From Cytophagales bacterium (lineage in GTDB: Bacteria; Bacteroidota; Bacteroidia; Cytophagales; Thermoflexibacteraceae), in contig JAAFJS010000016.1 of NCBI GenBank assembly GCA_013298985.1, forward strand, positions 1 through 45,452: DNA of 45,452 nucleotides, written 5' to 3'. Each line of letters opens with the position of its first letter. The stretch's first letter is position 1. Both the position numbers and the translations under genes were made by a program. Shown piece after piece: positions 3,541 to 37,816 of this stretch. The notes beneath the pieces are model-generated. The model ran no database searches. It worked only from the letters and a program-made list of their open reading frames with translations, and had not been told where the DNA came from.

Positions 3541-4479
3541 ATGACTACTGAAATTATAAAATGTTTGATAATAGGCTCTGGTCCTGCGGGTTATACTGCC
3601 GCCATCTATGCAGCAAGGGCGGGCATAAAACCAATACTTTATCAAGGTAGCCAGCCTGGTGGACAGCTCACCATCACTTCAGATGTGGAAAACTACCCAG
3701 GCTACCCCAAAGGAATCAATGGACCCAGCATGATGATGGATTTTCAGGCGCAAGCAGAACGGTTTGGGGCGGATATTCGCGATGGTATGGTTACTTCGGT
3801 AGATTTTAACAGCTACCCCTTCAAAGTTACCGTAGATGAAAGTATTGATTTACAAGCATATAGCGTTATTATTTCCACAGGAGCATCAGCCAAATGGCTG
3901 GGCTTACCTTCAGAGCAGCGTCTGAACAGTCATGGCGTTTCTGCCTGTGCGGTTTGTGATGGCTTTTTTTATAGAGGCATGGAAGTTGCGGTGGTGGGTG
4001 CGGGCGATACAGCCGCCGAAGAAGCGAGCTACTTGGCAAATCTGTGTAAAAAAGTAAATTTGCTGGTCAGGAGAGGCGAAATGCGTGCCTCGAAGTTTAT
4101 GCAAGAGAGAGTACAAAACCTGCCTAACGTACAGATTTGGTGGAATACCGAAACTGAGGAAATTTTGGGAGAGCATGAAGTCGAGGGCGTGCGCGTCAGG
4201 AACAATAAAACAGGTGAGATTTCTACCATTCCCATCAAAGGTTTCTTTGTGGCAATAGGTCATCAGCCCAATACTGGTATTTTCAAAGATTTTATCAATA
4301 TGGACGAAACTGGCTACATCAAAACCATTGCTGGCTCAACCAAGACCAACATCGAGGGCGTTTTTGCCGCAGGTGATGCCCAAGACAATGTATATCGCCA
4401 AGCAGTTACAGCCGCAGGAACGGGCTGTATGGCGGCTTTGGACGCAGAAAGATTTTTGGCTATGAAAGGAATACATTAA
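3541..4479 (+). CDS. trxB: Thioredoxin-disulfide reductase
   Basis: This 312-residue flavoprotein uses NADPH to reduce thioredoxin in the cytoplasm. Visible elements are the FAD-binding IIGSGPAGYTAA near residues 10-21, the redox-active CAVCDG with Cys136 and Cys139, the NADPH-binding VVGAGDTAAEEA at residues 151-162, the phosphate-binding VRRGEMRAS loop, and the C-terminal FAD motif GVFAAGDAQD. Length and motif order match low-molecular-weight bacterial TrxB. The basic loop reads VRR where many homologues have HRR. It appears monocistronic: about 60 bases precede its -7 box and 230 bases follow it. Confidence 0.96.
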   Translation: MTTEIIKCLIIGSGPAGYTAAIYAARAGIKPILYQGSQPGGQLTITSDVENYPGYPKGINGPSMMMDFQAQAERFGADIRDGMVTSVDFNSYPFKVTVDESIDLQAYSVIISTGASAKWLGLPSEQRLNSHGVSACAVCDGFFYRGMEVAVVGAGDTAAEEASYLANLCKKVNLLVRRGEMRASKFMQERVQNLPNVQIWWNTETEEILGEHEVEGVRVRNNKTGEISTIPIKGFFVAIGHQPNTGIFKDFINMDETGYIKTIAGSTKTNIEGVFAAGDAQDNVYRQAVTAAGTGCMAALDAERFLAMKGIH

Positions 4480-4712
4480 AATAGGTTGAAATTTTTAAAG
4501 TTTATGGTTCAAATAAGTATGTGAAATTAGTTTAGCAAGATTGTTTTTTATAAATGCTTAATAATGAGCGTCTTAAAATTATTTAAAATTTATGATTTAC
4601 AATTCATCACTGCTTAATTTGCTATTTTCATTTATTTTGTTGAAAATTGAGAATTCAAATAAGAGCCTTTACAGGTTGTATAAATTGAAAACCAACTAAT
4701 TAGGATTAATTT

Positions 4713-5981
4713 ATGAAGAAAGTTTTACGTCAAAGGAATCTAAAAACGCTTTGCATTTTTTCTTTCTTGTTTTTTGTCTTCGCTACTACTGCCACTTTTG
4801 CACAGCAAAAAAGGAAATCTTTTACACAAAGGGTGGGCGATTTTTTTGAGTTCAAAATCATCAAAAAGATTTGGACTCCTTCTGATACTGCTTCTCTGAA
4901 AGGCACAGAACTTCAAACAGTGCAAGAGGACAACAAAAAAGATTCGCTTTTATTGAATCCAAATGGTACAGATGAGGCAAAAACAGCACTTCAAAATGAT
5001 TCACAAGGCAAAAATGTCGGTGGTGATTCCCCTCTGGGTGGGCAGACTGAGGCTGAACAGGAAATGAAACGAGTAGAAGAAACATTCAAGGAATTGGATA
5101 TATTGAAAAAAGATACTCTTTTTATCAAGAATATCATCAAAAACGCCTACGAACAGCCCTTAGACCTTAGCGAACCCAAATCGCTGCTGAGAGAGGACAA
5201 TAGCAATTTTTATGATGTAGAGATGAAGAAAATAGTGATGGTTACAGAGGAGTTAGCCATTGATTGTGTGTGGGTTACGCTGACTAATTATTATGCTATT
5301 TGGGATTCAGAAAACATCAATCCATACAAGTACAATATTGAAGAATTTAAGGAATCTGTTGATATTCAGCTATTTGATAGCCTTGCGCCTCAGCAATGGG
5401 CTGCACCTCTGGCAAGTAATAAAGTAACCTCGAACTTTGGTTTTCGTCGTTATCGCTGGCATGGAGGTATAGATTTGGACTTGGACATTGGCGACCCAGT
5501 GTATGCTTCTTTTGATGGGATAGTACGGATAAATAGCTATGCCAAAGGAGGTTACGGTAGGCACATTGTGTTACGACATTTTAACGGGCTGGAAACTTTG
5601 TATGGACACTTGAGCAAATCCAATGTCGAGGTAGGGCAGGAAGTAAAAGCAGGGGTGGAAATAGGAAAAGGTGGTAGCACTGGACGCAGTACGGGACCTC
5701 ACCTTCACTACGAAGTGCGCTACAAAGGTCATGCTTTTAACCCTGCCGAAATTTATGATTTTAATACTAACGAGCTCAAAACCAGCTTGTTCCGACTCTC
5801 CCCTGACCATTTCAAGCATCTGACTAATCGCCGCCAAGTGGTCTATCATACTGTAGAAAAAGGAGATACGATTGGCGAACTCTCACGATTGTACGAAGTT
5901 TCTGTCAAGCACTTGTGCCGAATGAATAGAATCTATGCAAGTACAAAATTAAAGATAGGTAGAAAACTAAGAATCAAATAG
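4713..5981 (+). CDS. M23 metallopeptidase with C-terminal LysM
   Basis: This 422-residue secreted peptidase has a signal peptide (residues 1-30, ending TFA). A low-complexity, partly charged linker follows at about residues 50-130. The LytM/M23 domain lies at about residues 235-345, with zinc-binding residues in HGGIDLD (His250, Asp254) and HLHYE (His330/332). A single LysM domain (VEKGDTIGELSRLYEVS onward) covers residues 377-422. The family cleaves peptidoglycan cross-bridges or activates amidases, and LysM binds the glycan. The domain order, peptidase before LysM, is reversed from many bacterial M23 proteins but common in Bacteroidota. A strong terminator follows. Confidence 0.93.
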   Translation: MKKVLRQRNLKTLCIFSFLFFVFATTATFAQQKRKSFTQRVGDFFEFKIIKKIWTPSDTASLKGTELQTVQEDNKKDSLLLNPNGTDEAKTALQNDSQGKNVGGDSPLGGQTEAEQEMKRVEETFKELDILKKDTLFIKNIIKNAYEQPLDLSEPKSLLREDNSNFYDVEMKKIVMVTEELAIDCVWVTLTNYYAIWDSENINPYKYNIEEFKESVDIQLFDSLAPQQWAAPLASNKVTSNFGFRRYRWHGGIDLDLDIGDPVYASFDGIVRINSYAKGGYGRHIVLRHFNGLETLYGHLSKSNVEVGQEVKAGVEIGKGGSTGRSTGPHLHYEVRYKGHAFNPAEIYDFNTNELKTSLFRLSPDHFKHLTNRRQVVYHTVEKGDTIGELSRLYEVSVKHLCRMNRIYASTKLKIGRKLRIK

Positions 5982-30805: not shown

Positions 30806-31018
30806 ATGTTATCAAAACTACTTATTGGTGCGGTCAAGGGGTATCAGTTAGTGATTAGCCCTATCAAGCCACCCACTTGCAGATTTGTACCTACTTGCTC
30901 CCAATACATGATAGAGGCAATCCGCAAACATGGGGCGTGGAAAGGCTTGCGGCTGGGTATCAAGCGAATAGGGCGTTGTCATCCCTGGGGCGATAGTGGC
31001 TTTGACCCTGTCCCTTAA
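30806..31018 (+). CDS. yidD: Membrane protein insertion efficiency factor YidD
   Basis: This 70-residue protein has the conserved [20 protein letters not shown] and [19 protein letters not shown] segments, including the three conserved cysteines. It associates with the inner membrane and helps YidC insert proteins. It starts 76 bases after sdhC rather than in the usual rnpA-yidC setting. Confidence 0.94.
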
Positions 31019-31118: not shown

Positions 31119-33152
31119 ATGAGGAAATTTTATATTGGTATTTTTTGCTTTTTTTGTATTATGTCATCTGCTTATGCCAATGACACCCTGCAAGCTATTT
31201 TCCAAAACGCAAAAACTATCAAAGATATTGAAGCCCTGAATAACGGAGTCCTCACCGTTTTGGAGAGCAGATACCTTCCTACTGATTTGCAACCCATTCC
31301 CACCGAATATCTACAATACGCTGAAAAATCATTACAACTTTCAGGAAGTCTAAAATATCAAAAGGGCGAAGCGCAGGCATTACTCGCTATTGGGCTGTAT
31401 TACTGGCACTTAGGGCTAAACTACCAAAGTGGGATAGACCAAAAACCATTCTCTTATCTCGAACGGGCGGCGGCAATCGCCAAAAATAATAATGACCTTA
31501 TCATTGAGGCAAGGGCAAATCGAGCCATTGGCAAAATTTATGTGGAGTTGGGCGAATTGCGACTTGGGCTAAAAACCTTACTGGAATCTGAAGTAGAAGC
31601 AAAAAAAGATAGTATCAAGAGCAAAAAAGTTTATGTAGCTACTGACCTTGGCAATATTTATTTTGATACAGGAGAATATCTCAAAGCCTTACAAAAATTC
31701 TTGGAGGCGTTGGTGCTGGCACGCAATGAAAATGACAACCATAAAATAGCCTACTCACTCAGCAATGTGGCAAAGGCTTTTAATAAGTTGGCACGCAAGG
31801 CAAAAGCAATTTCTACACTGGACGATGGCATTGTCATTGCCGAACAAAACAAAGATTGGTTTAGCCTTGCCTTGCTTTATAACATCTACGGAAATGTTAG
31901 TTTCCAATTAGATGAAACCGAAAAAGCAACCCAATACTACGAAAAAGCGTTGGAAATGAGTAAAAAAATAGATAATAGAAGATTGACAGCAGATATTTTA
32001 CAAAATTTTGCCAAACTTTATAGCCGCCAGCAAAACTACAAGAAAGCGTTAGAGTTTTACCAACAAGCAGTCCCTATTTATGAAAAATATGTCCCCAAAA
32101 TACGCCTCATAGATGTTTATGCTGACCTTTCTGATATTTATGTCTATAACAAAGATTACCAAAAAGCACTCAATTATTTCAAACTGCACACTGACCTGAA
32201 AACTCAGTATTTCAGTGATGAAAATCAGCAAGAACTGCTGGCAGAAGAAGCAGAGAGCAATGAAAGAAAAATAGAGGTCTTAGAAAAAGCCAATAAACTG
32301 GCAGAAAGTGAATTAAATCTACAACGTTTGCTTACCAATGTAGCACTGGGCGCAGTTATACTCATCTTGCTTGGGACTATTTTTCTGTTTTATATTTTTC
32401 GCCAAAAACAAAAAAGCAATAAGGATTTACAAAAGCAAAAAGAAGAACTCAAACAGGCTAACTTGCTCAAAGATAGAATGTTTACCGTCATTTCCCAAGA
32501 CCTCCGTAACCCACTCAATTCGCTTCGCAGTGTAGTTACCCTGCTCAACGCAGGTGCATTAAACGCACAAGAAATCAAGTTAATTTCCGAAAAGCTCAAT
32601 GATGAATTGGGCGGAGCTTTGGGCTTACTCGATAGCTTGCTTCTTTGGGCGCGTTCGCAGATGCAAGGCATCAAACGAGAGTCCGTTGCGCTTGACATTT
32701 ATCAAGTTATCTCAGAAAACATCAACCTGCTTTCAGGGAATATCAGTAAGAAAAATATTATTTTGCAAAATACTATTGTTCAAACTCTTGTAAAAGTAAA
32801 GGCAGACCCCAATATGATAAATCTGGTAGTAAGAAACCTACTTTCCAATGCTATCAAGGTTTCGCCCAGAGGCACATCTATCATGCTGAGTGCCAAGACC
32901 AACGGAGAAATGATAGAGGTGAGTATTACCGACTCAGGCACAGCCGTTAAGAATGAAAATCTGCAAAAAATATTCAATCCTGACTCCGTATTAAGCAATA
33001 CAGGAAATGCAACAACAAAAGATTCAGGCGTGGATTTGCTCCTTTGTAAGGAATTTATAGAAGAAAACGGTGGGCAGATGTGGGTCAAGAGTGAAGAAGG
33101 CAGAGGGAATACATTTAGCTTTAGCTTGAAGGCACAAAATCCTCAAAGTTAG
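31119..33152 (+). CDS. TPR sensor histidine kinase with degenerate catalytic motifs
   Basis: This is a 677-residue protein: signal peptide (1-21), about six periplasmic TPR units (such as KALQKFLEALVLARNENDN and KATQYYEKALEMSKKI), a membrane helix near residues 404-424, a short coiled coil, a HisKA-type dimerisation helix and an HATPase_c domain. The H-box reads TVISQDLRNPLNSL: Gln460 stands where the phospho-accepting histidine should be. The N-box (RNLLSNAIK) is kept, but G1 reads DSGTAV and G2 reads DSGVDLLL, both short of glycines. It may be a pseudokinase or signalling partner. No response regulator is adjacent. It overlaps the convergent gene by 32 bases. Confidence 0.85.
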   Translation: MRKFYIGIFCFFCIMSSAYANDTLQAIFQNAKTIKDIEALNNGVLTVLESRYLPTDLQPIPTEYLQYAEKSLQLSGSLKYQKGEAQALLAIGLYYWHLGLNYQSGIDQKPFSYLERAAAIAKNNNDLIIEARANRAIGKIYVELGELRLGLKTLLESEVEAKKDSIKSKKVYVATDLGNIYFDTGEYLKALQKFLEALVLARNENDNHKIAYSLSNVAKAFNKLARKAKAISTLDDGIVIAEQNKDWFSLALLYNIYGNVSFQLDETEKATQYYEKALEMSKKIDNRRLTADILQNFAKLYSRQQNYKKALEFYQQAVPIYEKYVPKIRLIDVYADLSDIYVYNKDYQKALNYFKLHTDLKTQYFSDENQQELLAEEAESNERKIEVLEKANKLAESELNLQRLLTNVALGAVILILLGTIFLFYIFRQKQKSNKDLQKQKEELKQANLLKDRMFTVISQDLRNPLNSLRSVVTLLNAGALNAQEIKLISEKLNDELGGALGLLDSLLLWARSQMQGIKRESVALDIYQVISENINLLSGNISKKNIILQNTIVQTLVKVKADPNMINLVVRNLLSNAIKVSPRGTSIMLSAKTNGEMIEVSITDSGTAVKNENLQKIFNPDSVLSNTGNATTKDSGVDLLLCKEFIEENGGQMWVKSEEGRGNTFSFSLKAQNPQS

Positions 33153-33579
33153 GAAGCTGGGCAATCGACTCGCTTCCTCCCTTTTCAAAATCTACTTTGT
33201 AATACAGATGTTGCAAGCCATTAGTAACTGCCAAATATTTTGCTTTTAAAACATAGTTATACATAAGAGCCTGATTAACAGCTTGTTGTGTGAGCATAAT
33301 AGAACTTGCTTTGCACTCTGTCAGCAAAAAAGGGCTTCCCTGCCTGTCATATACTATCACATCACTGCGTTTCTGCAAATTATTGTAATGCAAGCCACTT
33401 TCCACATTAATCAGTGATTTAGGATACTGATTTCCTATCAAATAATGCACAAAATGCTGCCTCACCCACTCCTCAGAGGTGAGCATAATGTATTTTTTGC
33501 GAATGACATCAAAGATAAATACCTTATTTTCTTTGGTTTGTAATTGATACTCAAATTCGGGTAACGCTAATTTAATCAT
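33121..33579 (-). CDS. Stand-alone restriction-enzyme N-terminal-type nuclease domain
   Basis: This 152-residue protein resembles the type I restriction R-subunit N-terminal (HSDR_N) family found as single-domain proteins in Bacteroidota. The start FIFDVIRKKYIMLTSEEWVR and the PD-(D/E)xK-like core SDVIVYDRQGSPFLLTECKA are visible. I start at the ATG at 33579 (MIKLALPEF); an in-frame GTG ten codons upstream is possible. No methylase, specificity subunit or helicase lies near it, so a classical restriction role is unlikely. Its 3' end overlaps the kinase gene tail-to-tail. Confidence 0.8.
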   Translation of the reverse strand: MIKLALPEFEYQLQTKENKVFIFDVIRKKYIMLTSEEWVRQHFVHYLIGNQYPKSLINVESGLHYNNLQKRSDVIVYDRQGSPFLLTECKASSIMLTQQAVNQALMYNYVLKAKYLAVTNGLQHLYYKVDFEKGGSESIAQLPNFEDFVPSS

Positions 33580-33628
33580 CAAAAAAGCCTTTTGATTAGT
33601 TGGCTTCACAAAAATACAAATTATTTTT

Positions 33629-35080: not shown

Positions 35081-37816
35081 TTATATACCCAAAAACTCCT
35101 TTAAATCTTCCTCCAATTTTTCAAACAATTCTTTTCGCTTGACAAAATCTAAGAGTGCCGAAATCTTAGCAGTTTTGCTTTGTCCATTAGCAAAATTGTT
35201 ATAGACTTCATCAAAATAGATTTGACAAAATAAAGTGAGTTTTTCATCATTGAGTTTTTGGTTGAGTGTGTTGTAAAGGGATTTGAGGTCGGGGGCTTTT
35301 TGAAGTGGAATTTCATGCAGATTGTCTAACCCCTCCAAACCAAATTTTTCACTCAAACTTTCCACTTCACCTGCCTTGCTTTTGAATCTCCCTTCATTGG
35401 TAATTTTTTCTAATTCTTTTTTGATTTTTTGGGTAATAAGACTATTTTTTGACAAAATTGTAATTTCCTGTTGTCCTTTTTCATAACAAGCCTCTACTAC
35501 TGCCGAACCTTGTACAGTTTCGAGCAAAAGCCCTTTTTGCCACATCAAAGGAACTTTTGAAAAACGCTTTGCCTTCACTATAAAACGTTGGATAAACACT
35601 TTGGGCAAAAAACGATAGGGTATTTTGCTTTTATCCAAATGTTTCGTATTTTCTCGTTCCCAATATAATACATGATTGGACTTTTCCAAAGGTAGAAGTT
35701 GTGGAACGGCAAAAGTACGGTCTTTAAAATCACTATCCCAATGTATTTCAAAAGCTAACTCTGCGCTCAACATAAAGTCCATAAATAATGCCCTTTCCTC
35801 ATCTGTATTGCTTTCCCAAATTTTACAAAGATTTTCATAGTCTAAAATGCCTTCTTTATGTTCCAATACTTCAAAATATGGACTTTCCCTATCCAAAATT
35901 TTGTAAATTGCTTGAATTGCCCAATCTTGGTTCAAAATAATTTGGTCATTGAAATAACCCTCTCGATAATACAATACGCCTGTATCATGCAAATAACTCC
36001 AAATAGTAGAGGCTGATTTTTTGCAATTATTTTCTTGGCAAATGTCTATAAAACTCTTAATAGATAAGGTTTTTACTGTATTTTTTTCCTGTTTCTGTTG
36101 AATGTTTTTCCTTACCTCTACCCAACTTATTGGCAAGGGTGGTGTTTGAAAAGTAGGGTGTGTTTGAAAAACTTTTATCATTACAGTTTCTAATATATTA
36201 AAACCCGCGCCTGTTTTGGCACTAATGGGCAAAAAATCTAAAATTGGGTATTCAGTTTTGAGTTTTCCTTTGTATTCAAAATAAAGGTCTTGAGTGAAGG
36301 TATCTACCTTGTTTTGTAGCACCAAAATAGGACTTTCAGGAGCAAAGCATTTAGCGTATTCTAACCAATAACGCAGTTTTTCGTTTTCATATTTTTTACC
36401 CTTCCAAGTGTGAAAATCCTGTCTTTCGTTCTCAAAATCCCAAACTAAGACAAGCAGAGCCCTTGTTTGCATAAACACGCGGTGGGTGGCGTGGTAAATA
36501 TCCTGCCCCGCAAAATCCCAGCAATTTAGCTCAAAATCTGCCAACTCTCTACGCAAAAGGGCTATCGCATGAGTAGAGTTATGTTCGGTATTAAAAACAA
36601 ATTTTTCCTGCTCGCAAAGCCTTTTCGCTATTTGCGTTTTGCCTACACTGCCATTCCCGATAAAGATGAGTTTGATTTCTTTGTTTTTCATCTCTTTTTG
36701 GACTCCTATATCTGCTAAATAGGTACGAATAGCCTCCAAACCATTTTTTAGCTTTTTATCAAAAATTTCTTTTGGAATATTTTGAATAGGATTTCCAAAT
36801 AATTCAAGCCTTTGAAGTTTAGGGAAAGGCTGAATAAAATTCAAGGGTACCTCTATAATTTGATTATTACTCAGATTTAAGCTCGTTAAATTTAACAACT
36901 CTTCTAAAAAATGAATATCCTTAATTTGATTATAACCTAAATCTAAGAGTCGTAAAGCAATGAGTTTTTCTAAAAAACGAATATCCTTGATTTGATTGTT
37001 ACTTAAATCTAAGTGTCGTAAGGCTGTGAGCTTTTCTAAAAAACAAATATCCTTGATTTGATTATTACTCAGATTTAAGTTCGTTAAATTTACCAGTCTT
37101 TTCAAAACGATATAATCCTTAATTTGACTATTCTCAAGTTTTGGGCTTATTAAATTTATTATCTTTTCTAAAAAATTATCATCCTTGATTTGATTATTGA
37201 TTTGGTTATTACTCAGATTTAAGTTCGTTAAATTTACCAACTCTTCTAAAAAACGAATATCCTTGATTTGATTGTTACTTAAATCTAAGTATAGTAAGGC
37301 TGTGAGTTTTTCTAAAAAACGAATATCCTTGATTTGATTGTTACTTAAATCTAAGTGTCGTAAGGCTGTGAGCTTTTCTAAAAAACAAATATCCTTGATT
37401 TGATTGTAGCTTAAATCTAAGTGTCGTAAGGCTGTGAGCTTTTCTAAAAAACGAATATCCTTGATTTGATTATAGCTTAAATCTAAGTGTCGTAAATTGG
37501 TGAGTTTTTCTAAAAAAGAAATATTTCCATCTGAAATAGTATCATTCAAGAATAATTGTTTAAGGTTAGAGATATTATTATAATGTAGTTTATTTAATTC
37601 TTTGCCTATGAGGCGATTATTTGACCATGTATTTTTAGTTTTTACTCGCTTTTGTTCTTTATTATCATAAAAGTCCAATCCAAAATTTAATCCTTCCAAG
37701 TGCTTTAGCATGAATAGTTCGTTGGGCAGGGAGGTGAGTCCGCAGTTCCCCAAGTCTAAGAAGGGGGCTTGGGTACGTAGGTTTTCTTCTATGAGTTTTT
37801 TGGAGAGGTCAGACAT
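35081..37816 (-). CDS. Roco (Roc-COR) GTPase with leucine-rich repeats
   Basis: This is a 911-residue protein. Leucine-rich repeats fill about residues 80-345, with ten units close to FLEKLTALRHLDLSYNQIKD. A Ras-like Roc GTPase domain follows: P-loop GNGSVGKT (387-394), DFAGQ (434-438), NKVD (502-505) and SAKTG (532-536). Then comes a COR dimerisation domain (about 560-780) and a shorter helical C-terminal part. There is no kinase domain, as in other bacterial Roco proteins, which cycle between GTP- and GDP-bound dimers. The biological role in bacteria is largely unknown. It has no obvious operon partner. Confidence 0.93.
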   Translation of the reverse strand: MSDLSKKLIEENLRTQAPFLDLGNCGLTSLPNELFMLKHLEGLNFGLDFYDNKEQKRVKTKNTWSNNRLIGKELNKLHYNNISNLKQLFLNDTISDGNISFLEKLTNLRHLDLSYNQIKDIRFLEKLTALRHLDLSYNQIKDICFLEKLTALRHLDLSNNQIKDIRFLEKLTALLYLDLSNNQIKDIRFLEELVNLTNLNLSNNQINNQIKDDNFLEKIINLISPKLENSQIKDYIVLKRLVNLTNLNLSNNQIKDICFLEKLTALRHLDLSNNQIKDIRFLEKLIALRLLDLGYNQIKDIHFLEELLNLTSLNLSNNQIIEVPLNFIQPFPKLQRLELFGNPIQNIPKEIFDKKLKNGLEAIRTYLADIGVQKEMKNKEIKLIFIGNGSVGKTQIAKRLCEQEKFVFNTEHNSTHAIALLRRELADFELNCWDFAGQDIYHATHRVFMQTRALLVLVWDFENERQDFHTWKGKKYENEKLRYWLEYAKCFAPESPILVLQNKVDTFTQDLYFEYKGKLKTEYPILDFLPISAKTGAGFNILETVMIKVFQTHPTFQTPPLPISWVEVRKNIQQKQEKNTVKTLSIKSFIDICQENNCKKSASTIWSYLHDTGVLYYREGYFNDQIILNQDWAIQAIYKILDRESPYFEVLEHKEGILDYENLCKIWESNTDEERALFMDFMLSAELAFEIHWDSDFKDRTFAVPQLLPLEKSNHVLYWERENTKHLDKSKIPYRFLPKVFIQRFIVKAKRFSKVPLMWQKGLLLETVQGSAVVEACYEKGQQEITILSKNSLITQKIKKELEKITNEGRFKSKAGEVESLSEKFGLEGLDNLHEIPLQKAPDLKSLYNTLNQKLNDEKLTLFCQIYFDEVYNNFANGQSKTAKISALLDFVKRKELFEKLEEDLKEFLGI
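36845..37516 (-). repeat. 66-base tandem repeats encoding LRR units
   Basis: Ten 22-residue units (residues 101-324) are encoded by nearly identical 66-base repeats, several differing at only a few bases. One unit carries a four-residue insertion (NQIN) made by slippage of the asparagine-rich core. Near identity at DNA level indicates recent expansion or gene conversion. Confidence 0.9.

Follow-up and report, generated by a model that had tools for sequence, protein, structure and literature searches.

The gene at positions 31119-33152 (+) of the window, which is the whole stretch of 45,452 nucleotides from a Cytophagales bacterium that we analyzed, encodes a protein of 677 residues with the architecture TPR-TM-HisKA-HATPase, in which Gln460 takes the place of the phospho-accepting His. 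Comparison with its orthologs in two congeners, L031 and L032, indicates that this protein is most likely a kept pseudo-histidine kinase, which would signal by binding a partner, either a response regulator or a sister kinase, through its DHp domain.

Gene and Domain Architecture

The gene was delimited from the open reading frame, the Pfam matches, and the two orthologs; the frame runs without interruption across all 677 residues (coordinates below are on the + strand unless a - is given). A probable signal peptide (residues 1-20; 31119-31178), read off the sequence as a hydrophobic N-terminus, precedes a TPR region (31290-32230) that is predicted to be a periplasmic sensor or scaffold from matches to Pfam TPR_12 (1.2e-27) and others together with the helical repeats of the structural model, after which a transmembrane helix spans approximately residues 407-427 (32337-32399), being both a hydrophobic stretch, NVALGAVILILLGTIFLFYIF, and a helix in the model. 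The signal peptide, the TPRs, and the single transmembrane helix fit with a protein that would sense through its periplasmic TPRs. The cytoplasmic core consists of a DHp (HisKA) domain (32448-32669), which matches Pfam HisKA over residues 451-514 and is identical across the three orthologs at 60 of 85 positions, and a CA (HATPase_c) domain (32751-33134), whose fold is retained (67.5 bits vs a cut-off of 26.4) and whose nucleotide boxes are damaged. The HisKA score of the window protein, 25.5 bits, lies slightly below the cut-off of 26.9, and those of L031 (33.9) and L032 (31.8) above it.

The AlphaFold model (mean pLDDT 79) retains the kinase fold, with a confidence below 50 in the ATP lid, residues 626-636. 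The top PDB matches of the kinase core were HK853 and the HK853-RR468 complexes; DivL (4q20_B) was also among the matches, with a TM score of 0.87 by target length. A fold match between a model and these structures would not by itself tell the function of the protein.

Downstream, a stand-alone HSDR_N_2 protein of 162 residues is encoded at 33121-33609 (-), the 3' end of its gene overlapping convergently by 32 bases with that of the pseudokinase gene. An LRR-Roc-COR protein of 911 residues, with a C-terminal EAD7 match slightly below the cut-off, follows at 35081-37816 (-), and its near-identical LRR units suggest a recent repeat expansion.

Glutamine at the Phosphorylation Site of the H-Box

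We compared 115 kinase cores, drawn from the genome of the window itself, the two congeneric genomes, the remaining genomes of the family, and the wider order. The original prediction had placed a Gln at the H-box His position, and so it proved: codon 460 (32496-32498) is CAA within FTVISQDLRNPLNS, in an H-box that is otherwise intact. CAA was found in 3/3 orthologs, to which Gln at this column was confined within the 115 cores, and His occupied the column in 110/110 active cores of the order. In the remaining two cores, one (L025) was a partial alignment that stopped short of the H-box, and the other (L030; G000:C281), located in the same genome as the window, had Ile in its His-less core YSIISIELGSP together with an in-frame stop and is by appearance a decayed kinase fragment.

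That the Gln might be a sequencing or assembly error, an explanation to which a draft of 383 contigs and a codon only one base from a His codon lend themselves, had been named as one circumstance under which the prediction would fall; we consider such an error vanishingly improbable and rejected it, since three separate assemblies, including those of both congeners, agree on CAA at the orthologous codon.

The window protein hence carries Gln460 where an active kinase has the phospho-accepting His of the H-box and, given the chemistry of the HisKA family, would be unable to transfer phosphate through its own DHp domain. Collins and Childers, as cited in PMC12632262, take a pseudo-histidine kinase to be a histidine-kinase core lacking at least one of its activities, and the present protein, having lost the phospho-acceptor (Gln in 3/3 orthologs, His in 110/110 others), falls within that description. 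A published survey found HisKA domains without the His at a frequency of 0.9% (722/76,471; PMC12632262); the loss of this residue is therefore rare, but a known kind of change.

Orthologs and Retention in the Genus

Within the genus, sampled through three genomes—that of the window and those of two congeners—both congeners possess full-length orthologs, L031 with 64% and L032 with 55% identity, in which CAA occupies the same codon although nearby synonymous positions differ. The conservation of Gln460, for which an alignment of orthologs had been proposed as a check, is accordingly found in both congeners examined, so that the refuting case named beforehand, His in every ortholog together with relaxed selection, does not apply. 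In quick trees, from which the support was taken, the three Gln orthologs formed a single clade (SH-aLRT 99-100). The orthology is further supported by yidD, encoding the membrane protein insertion efficiency factor (30806-31018; Pfam YidD, 106.6 bits), which lies 100 bp upstream of the kinase gene, because the order yidD then kinase is common to 3/3 genus genomes, the remaining immediate neighbors being different.

In ten other genomes of the family no kinase was found behind yidD, though yidD was present there, and a search of the same ten genomes for a His-bearing positional ortholog behind yidD found none; the kinase gene therefore probably reached this place in the genus ancestor. A scan of the genome contigs gave as its sole match an unrelated Treponema kinase. 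By this comparison, the common ancestor of the three genus genomes already had Gln instead of His, the change having arisen there or earlier, and the gene and its position behind yidD were kept thereafter.

With respect to the other surroundings, the pseudokinase gene of one congener, G002, lies next to trxB and a gene for an M23-type peptidase (locus L078, G002:C84:192609-194997). In the window the same genes lie at 3541-5981, about 25 kb off, beyond a ribosomal protein cluster, which differing placement is a rearrangement between the congeners.

The presence of the same Gln in both congeners, whose reading frames are unbroken and whose amino-acid sequence is strongly constrained, bears out the suggestion of a kept pseudokinase and argues that the genus would retain the protein for a role other than phosphate relay. 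At the level of the genus we consequently rejected the candidate explanation of a lone decayed gene; a late trend of that kind in the window species could still be under way, as the following results illustrate.

The ATP-Binding Boxes and the Order of the Losses

Sequence comparison with the active cores confirmed that the N-box RNLLSNAIK (LVVRNLLSNAIK; 32832-32858) is intact. The loss of glycines from the G1 and G2 boxes, as originally noted, held for the window protein but not as a conserved state: alignment with the active cores showed that the G1 box, DSGTAV (32931-32948), has lost G609, a Gly in 99% of those cores, and that the G2 box, KDSGVDLLL (33018-33044), has lost G635, L638, and G639 (the changes being G609A, G635D, L638V, and G639D), whereas in L031 both boxes are intact (DSGVGI, KGSGLGL) and L032 has DTGIGM in G1 and, with a two-residue insertion, KGEGIGLGL in G2. 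The view that the loss of the His and the damage to the ATP lid constituted a single event must therefore be abandoned in favor of a stepwise order. Since the lid damage is not common to the orthologs and is restricted to the window species, the replacement of His by Gln in the genus ancestor came first, and the decay of the nucleotide boxes in the window species was a later step.

These same observations raise the alternative of a kinase on its way out, silenced in the genus ancestor, remaining intact by inertia, and now decaying in the window species. Of the 28 CA positions conserved in active kinases, 10 are changed in the window copy versus 1 in L031 and 4 in L032, and at least one further His-less, stop-containing kinase fragment (L030) exists in the same genome. 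The changes unique to each lineage, counted for the window protein versus L031, point the same way: the kinase half has 31 versus 15 of them, and for the sensor half the counts are 31 versus 43 (Fisher p = 0.009); that test is nevertheless weak, inasmuch as the pooling into halves was chosen after the data were seen and one of two control triplets, A, was imbalanced in the opposite direction to a similar extent (p = 0.019). We thus take the excess as a support for the motif evidence, and not as one that could carry the claim of late decay alone; among the relative-rate tests of single domains of the pseudokinase, none was significant in itself. The additional changes in the kinase half could mean that the copy of the window species is losing its role, a possibility that counts against the explanation we favor below.

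Constraint on the Domains

The decay of a silenced kinase is, however, difficult to reconcile with the conservation of the DHp domain. The three orthologs are pairwise 83.5, 71.8, and 78.8% identical in the DHp, compared with 49-61% in the sensor half and 58-63% in the ATP-binding part, so that the DHp is the most conserved domain of the three, as in the active sisters. Those DHp values moreover fall in the upper range of the active reciprocal-best kinase pairs from the same genomes; judged by these identities, the domain is under the same constraint as in the active sister kinases. Furthermore, open frames have persisted in 3/3 species at 36-45% amino-acid divergence and with saturated synonymous sites, an outcome that would be unexpected without selection. 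The dN/dS calculation that had been called for gave, under a simple codon model, an omega below 0.2 for every pseudokinase domain in every fit, of which only the low ratio is meaningful and not the magnitude, because dS was saturated and the fitted branch lengths were at the bound. On balance, we regard a kinase on its way out as quite unlikely.

A Second Gln Clade within the Order

A degenerate DNA pattern for the Gln H-box, scanned over 390 genomes of the order, matched the three genus orthologs and a locus in another family (L141; family f22). The Gln clade of f22 comprises L142, L144, L145, and L146 (in genomes G127, G064, G035, and G115, respectively) from two genera, of which L144, L145, and L146 are relatives of L141 that belong to a different genus of f22. 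These proteins share with the genus orthologs the same His-to-Gln change within an I[ST]QDL[RK]xPLNSL H-box, but are HAMP-type sensor kinases instead of having TPR input, possess intact ATP boxes, and have a His-bearing sister, L143. A common origin of both Gln groups was rejected when they were forced into a single clade (AU p = 0.0007); the replacement has therefore been fixed and kept at least two times within the order. A less restrictive pattern, anchored in the second helix of the DHp, revealed no third Gln group, and the other matches to the Gln pattern looked like chance, with none of those followed up fitting the kinase-core profile.

Gln is one of the residues that lie a single base from a His codon; recurrence alone is therefore no proof of selection for Gln. 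ATP boxes are recognizable in 6/7 of the Gln proteins found. One might accordingly speculate that the His-less kinases of the order are nucleotide-gated, non-phosphorylatable switches, or else trans-kinases of their sisters, and that the window species represents a next step in which nucleotide binding has become dispensable; we hold this generalization to be rather improbable.

The significance of these proteins resides in a series of steps within one genus, where the phospho-acceptor was lost, then in one species the nucleotide site, and the binding domain was kept, and in an independent Gln clade of the same order that, together with its His-bearing relative, provides a direct comparison; the use made of a kinase after the loss of its His is therefore directly testable.

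Proposed Mechanism

In the mechanism that we propose, the periplasmic TPRs of the pseudokinase would take up a signal, which the membrane-spanning helix would pass inward, and the DHp helical bundle, never phosphorylated itself, would then alter its binding to a phosphotransfer partner. The likeliest partner would be a response regulator that serves one of the numerous sister TPR kinases and that the pseudokinase might hold or dephosphorylate, thereby exerting a negative regulation. The ATP-binding domain would be an accessory switch at most, because one of the three species lacks the key glycines. No response regulator was found on the contig of the window, and none is conserved beside the orthologs, the one at G001:C40:116012 not being conserved; the partner would therefore be encoded elsewhere in the genome, which gave 49 matches to the receiver domain.

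A phosphatase-like action is compatible with what is known of the HisKA family, in which the motif E/DxxT/N after the His position serves this activity (PMC3510030, PMC11502775) and Asn or Thr is required at H+4, the His being required only partly (PMC3510030). In CrdS, the H371A variant still lowered the half-life of CrdA~P from 53.5 to 2.6 min, and N375, at H+4, was essential for the phosphatase activity (PMC3510030). By alignment, the corresponding residue in the window protein is Asn464 (32508-32510). The window protein and L031 have DLRN at this motif and L032 has DLRS; with Ser at H+4 in L032, as also in 57/110 active cores, the motif is not uniformly kept. That Asp461 is still conserved speaks against our explanation, in that its counterpart in CrdS serves the kinase activity only.

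The high conservation of the DHp could also be read differently, since this domain is the seat of the dimer interface: the pseudokinase might pair through it with a sister TPR kinase that is active, thereby either blocking that partner or, in the other species, where its own ATP domain is intact, phosphorylating the partner His in trans. Such heterodimers would have some 20 candidate partners among the sister TPR kinases of the same genome, would account for the ATP boxes recognizable in most of the Gln proteins, and have a precedent in RetS, which inhibits the autophosphorylation of GacS (PMC5992135); the absence of the G1 and G2 glycines from the window copy, for its part, makes an action as trans-kinase very unlikely in the window species. 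In our ranking, mixed dimers with a sister kinase come second, as a tentative possibility, and the action on a response regulator comes first. The best explanation overall, to which we would give about an even chance, is then a kept pseudo-histidine kinase that acts as a negative regulator with the response regulator of the sister kinases as its partner.

Comparison with Known Systems

Only a small number of pseudo-histidine kinases are understood; DivL and RetS, which have been studied well, come from Proteobacteria. The best NCBIfam match of the window protein, over residues 333-671 as the best stretch, was FimS (NF053520), to which the protein does not belong, its 176.6 bits standing against an equivalog cut-off of 600. 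The FimS-type TPR sensor kinases of Bacteroidota have a similar sensor-TM-HisKA-HATPase plan, but FimS carries the annotation of a sensor histidine kinase, whereas the window protein is without the phospho-acceptor.

RetS of Pseudomonas aeruginosa, which possesses a degenerate ATPase domain and acts on GacS, resembles the window protein in the degenerate G-boxes and as a kinase-like controller of another signaling kinase (PMC5992135); RetS, however, keeps its H-box (HExxT) and bears two REC domains, whereas the window protein has neither the His nor a REC domain.

DivL of Caulobacter, which binds DivK~P and has neither kinase nor phosphatase activity, likewise combines a HisKA-HATPase core, in which the His is replaced throughout the orthologs, with a weakened ATP site and a kept DHp surface (PMC4211667), and has the same fold as the window protein. 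Nevertheless, DivL has Tyr550 at the His position (Ala in Magnetospirillum) and PAS inputs in place of the Gln and the periplasmic TPRs of the window protein, which is therefore not a DivL; it belongs to another lineage, and the two are only 19% identical in the fold alignment. By its sequence, the window protein would thus add to the kind of pseudokinase known from DivL and RetS, with a mechanism that we infer.
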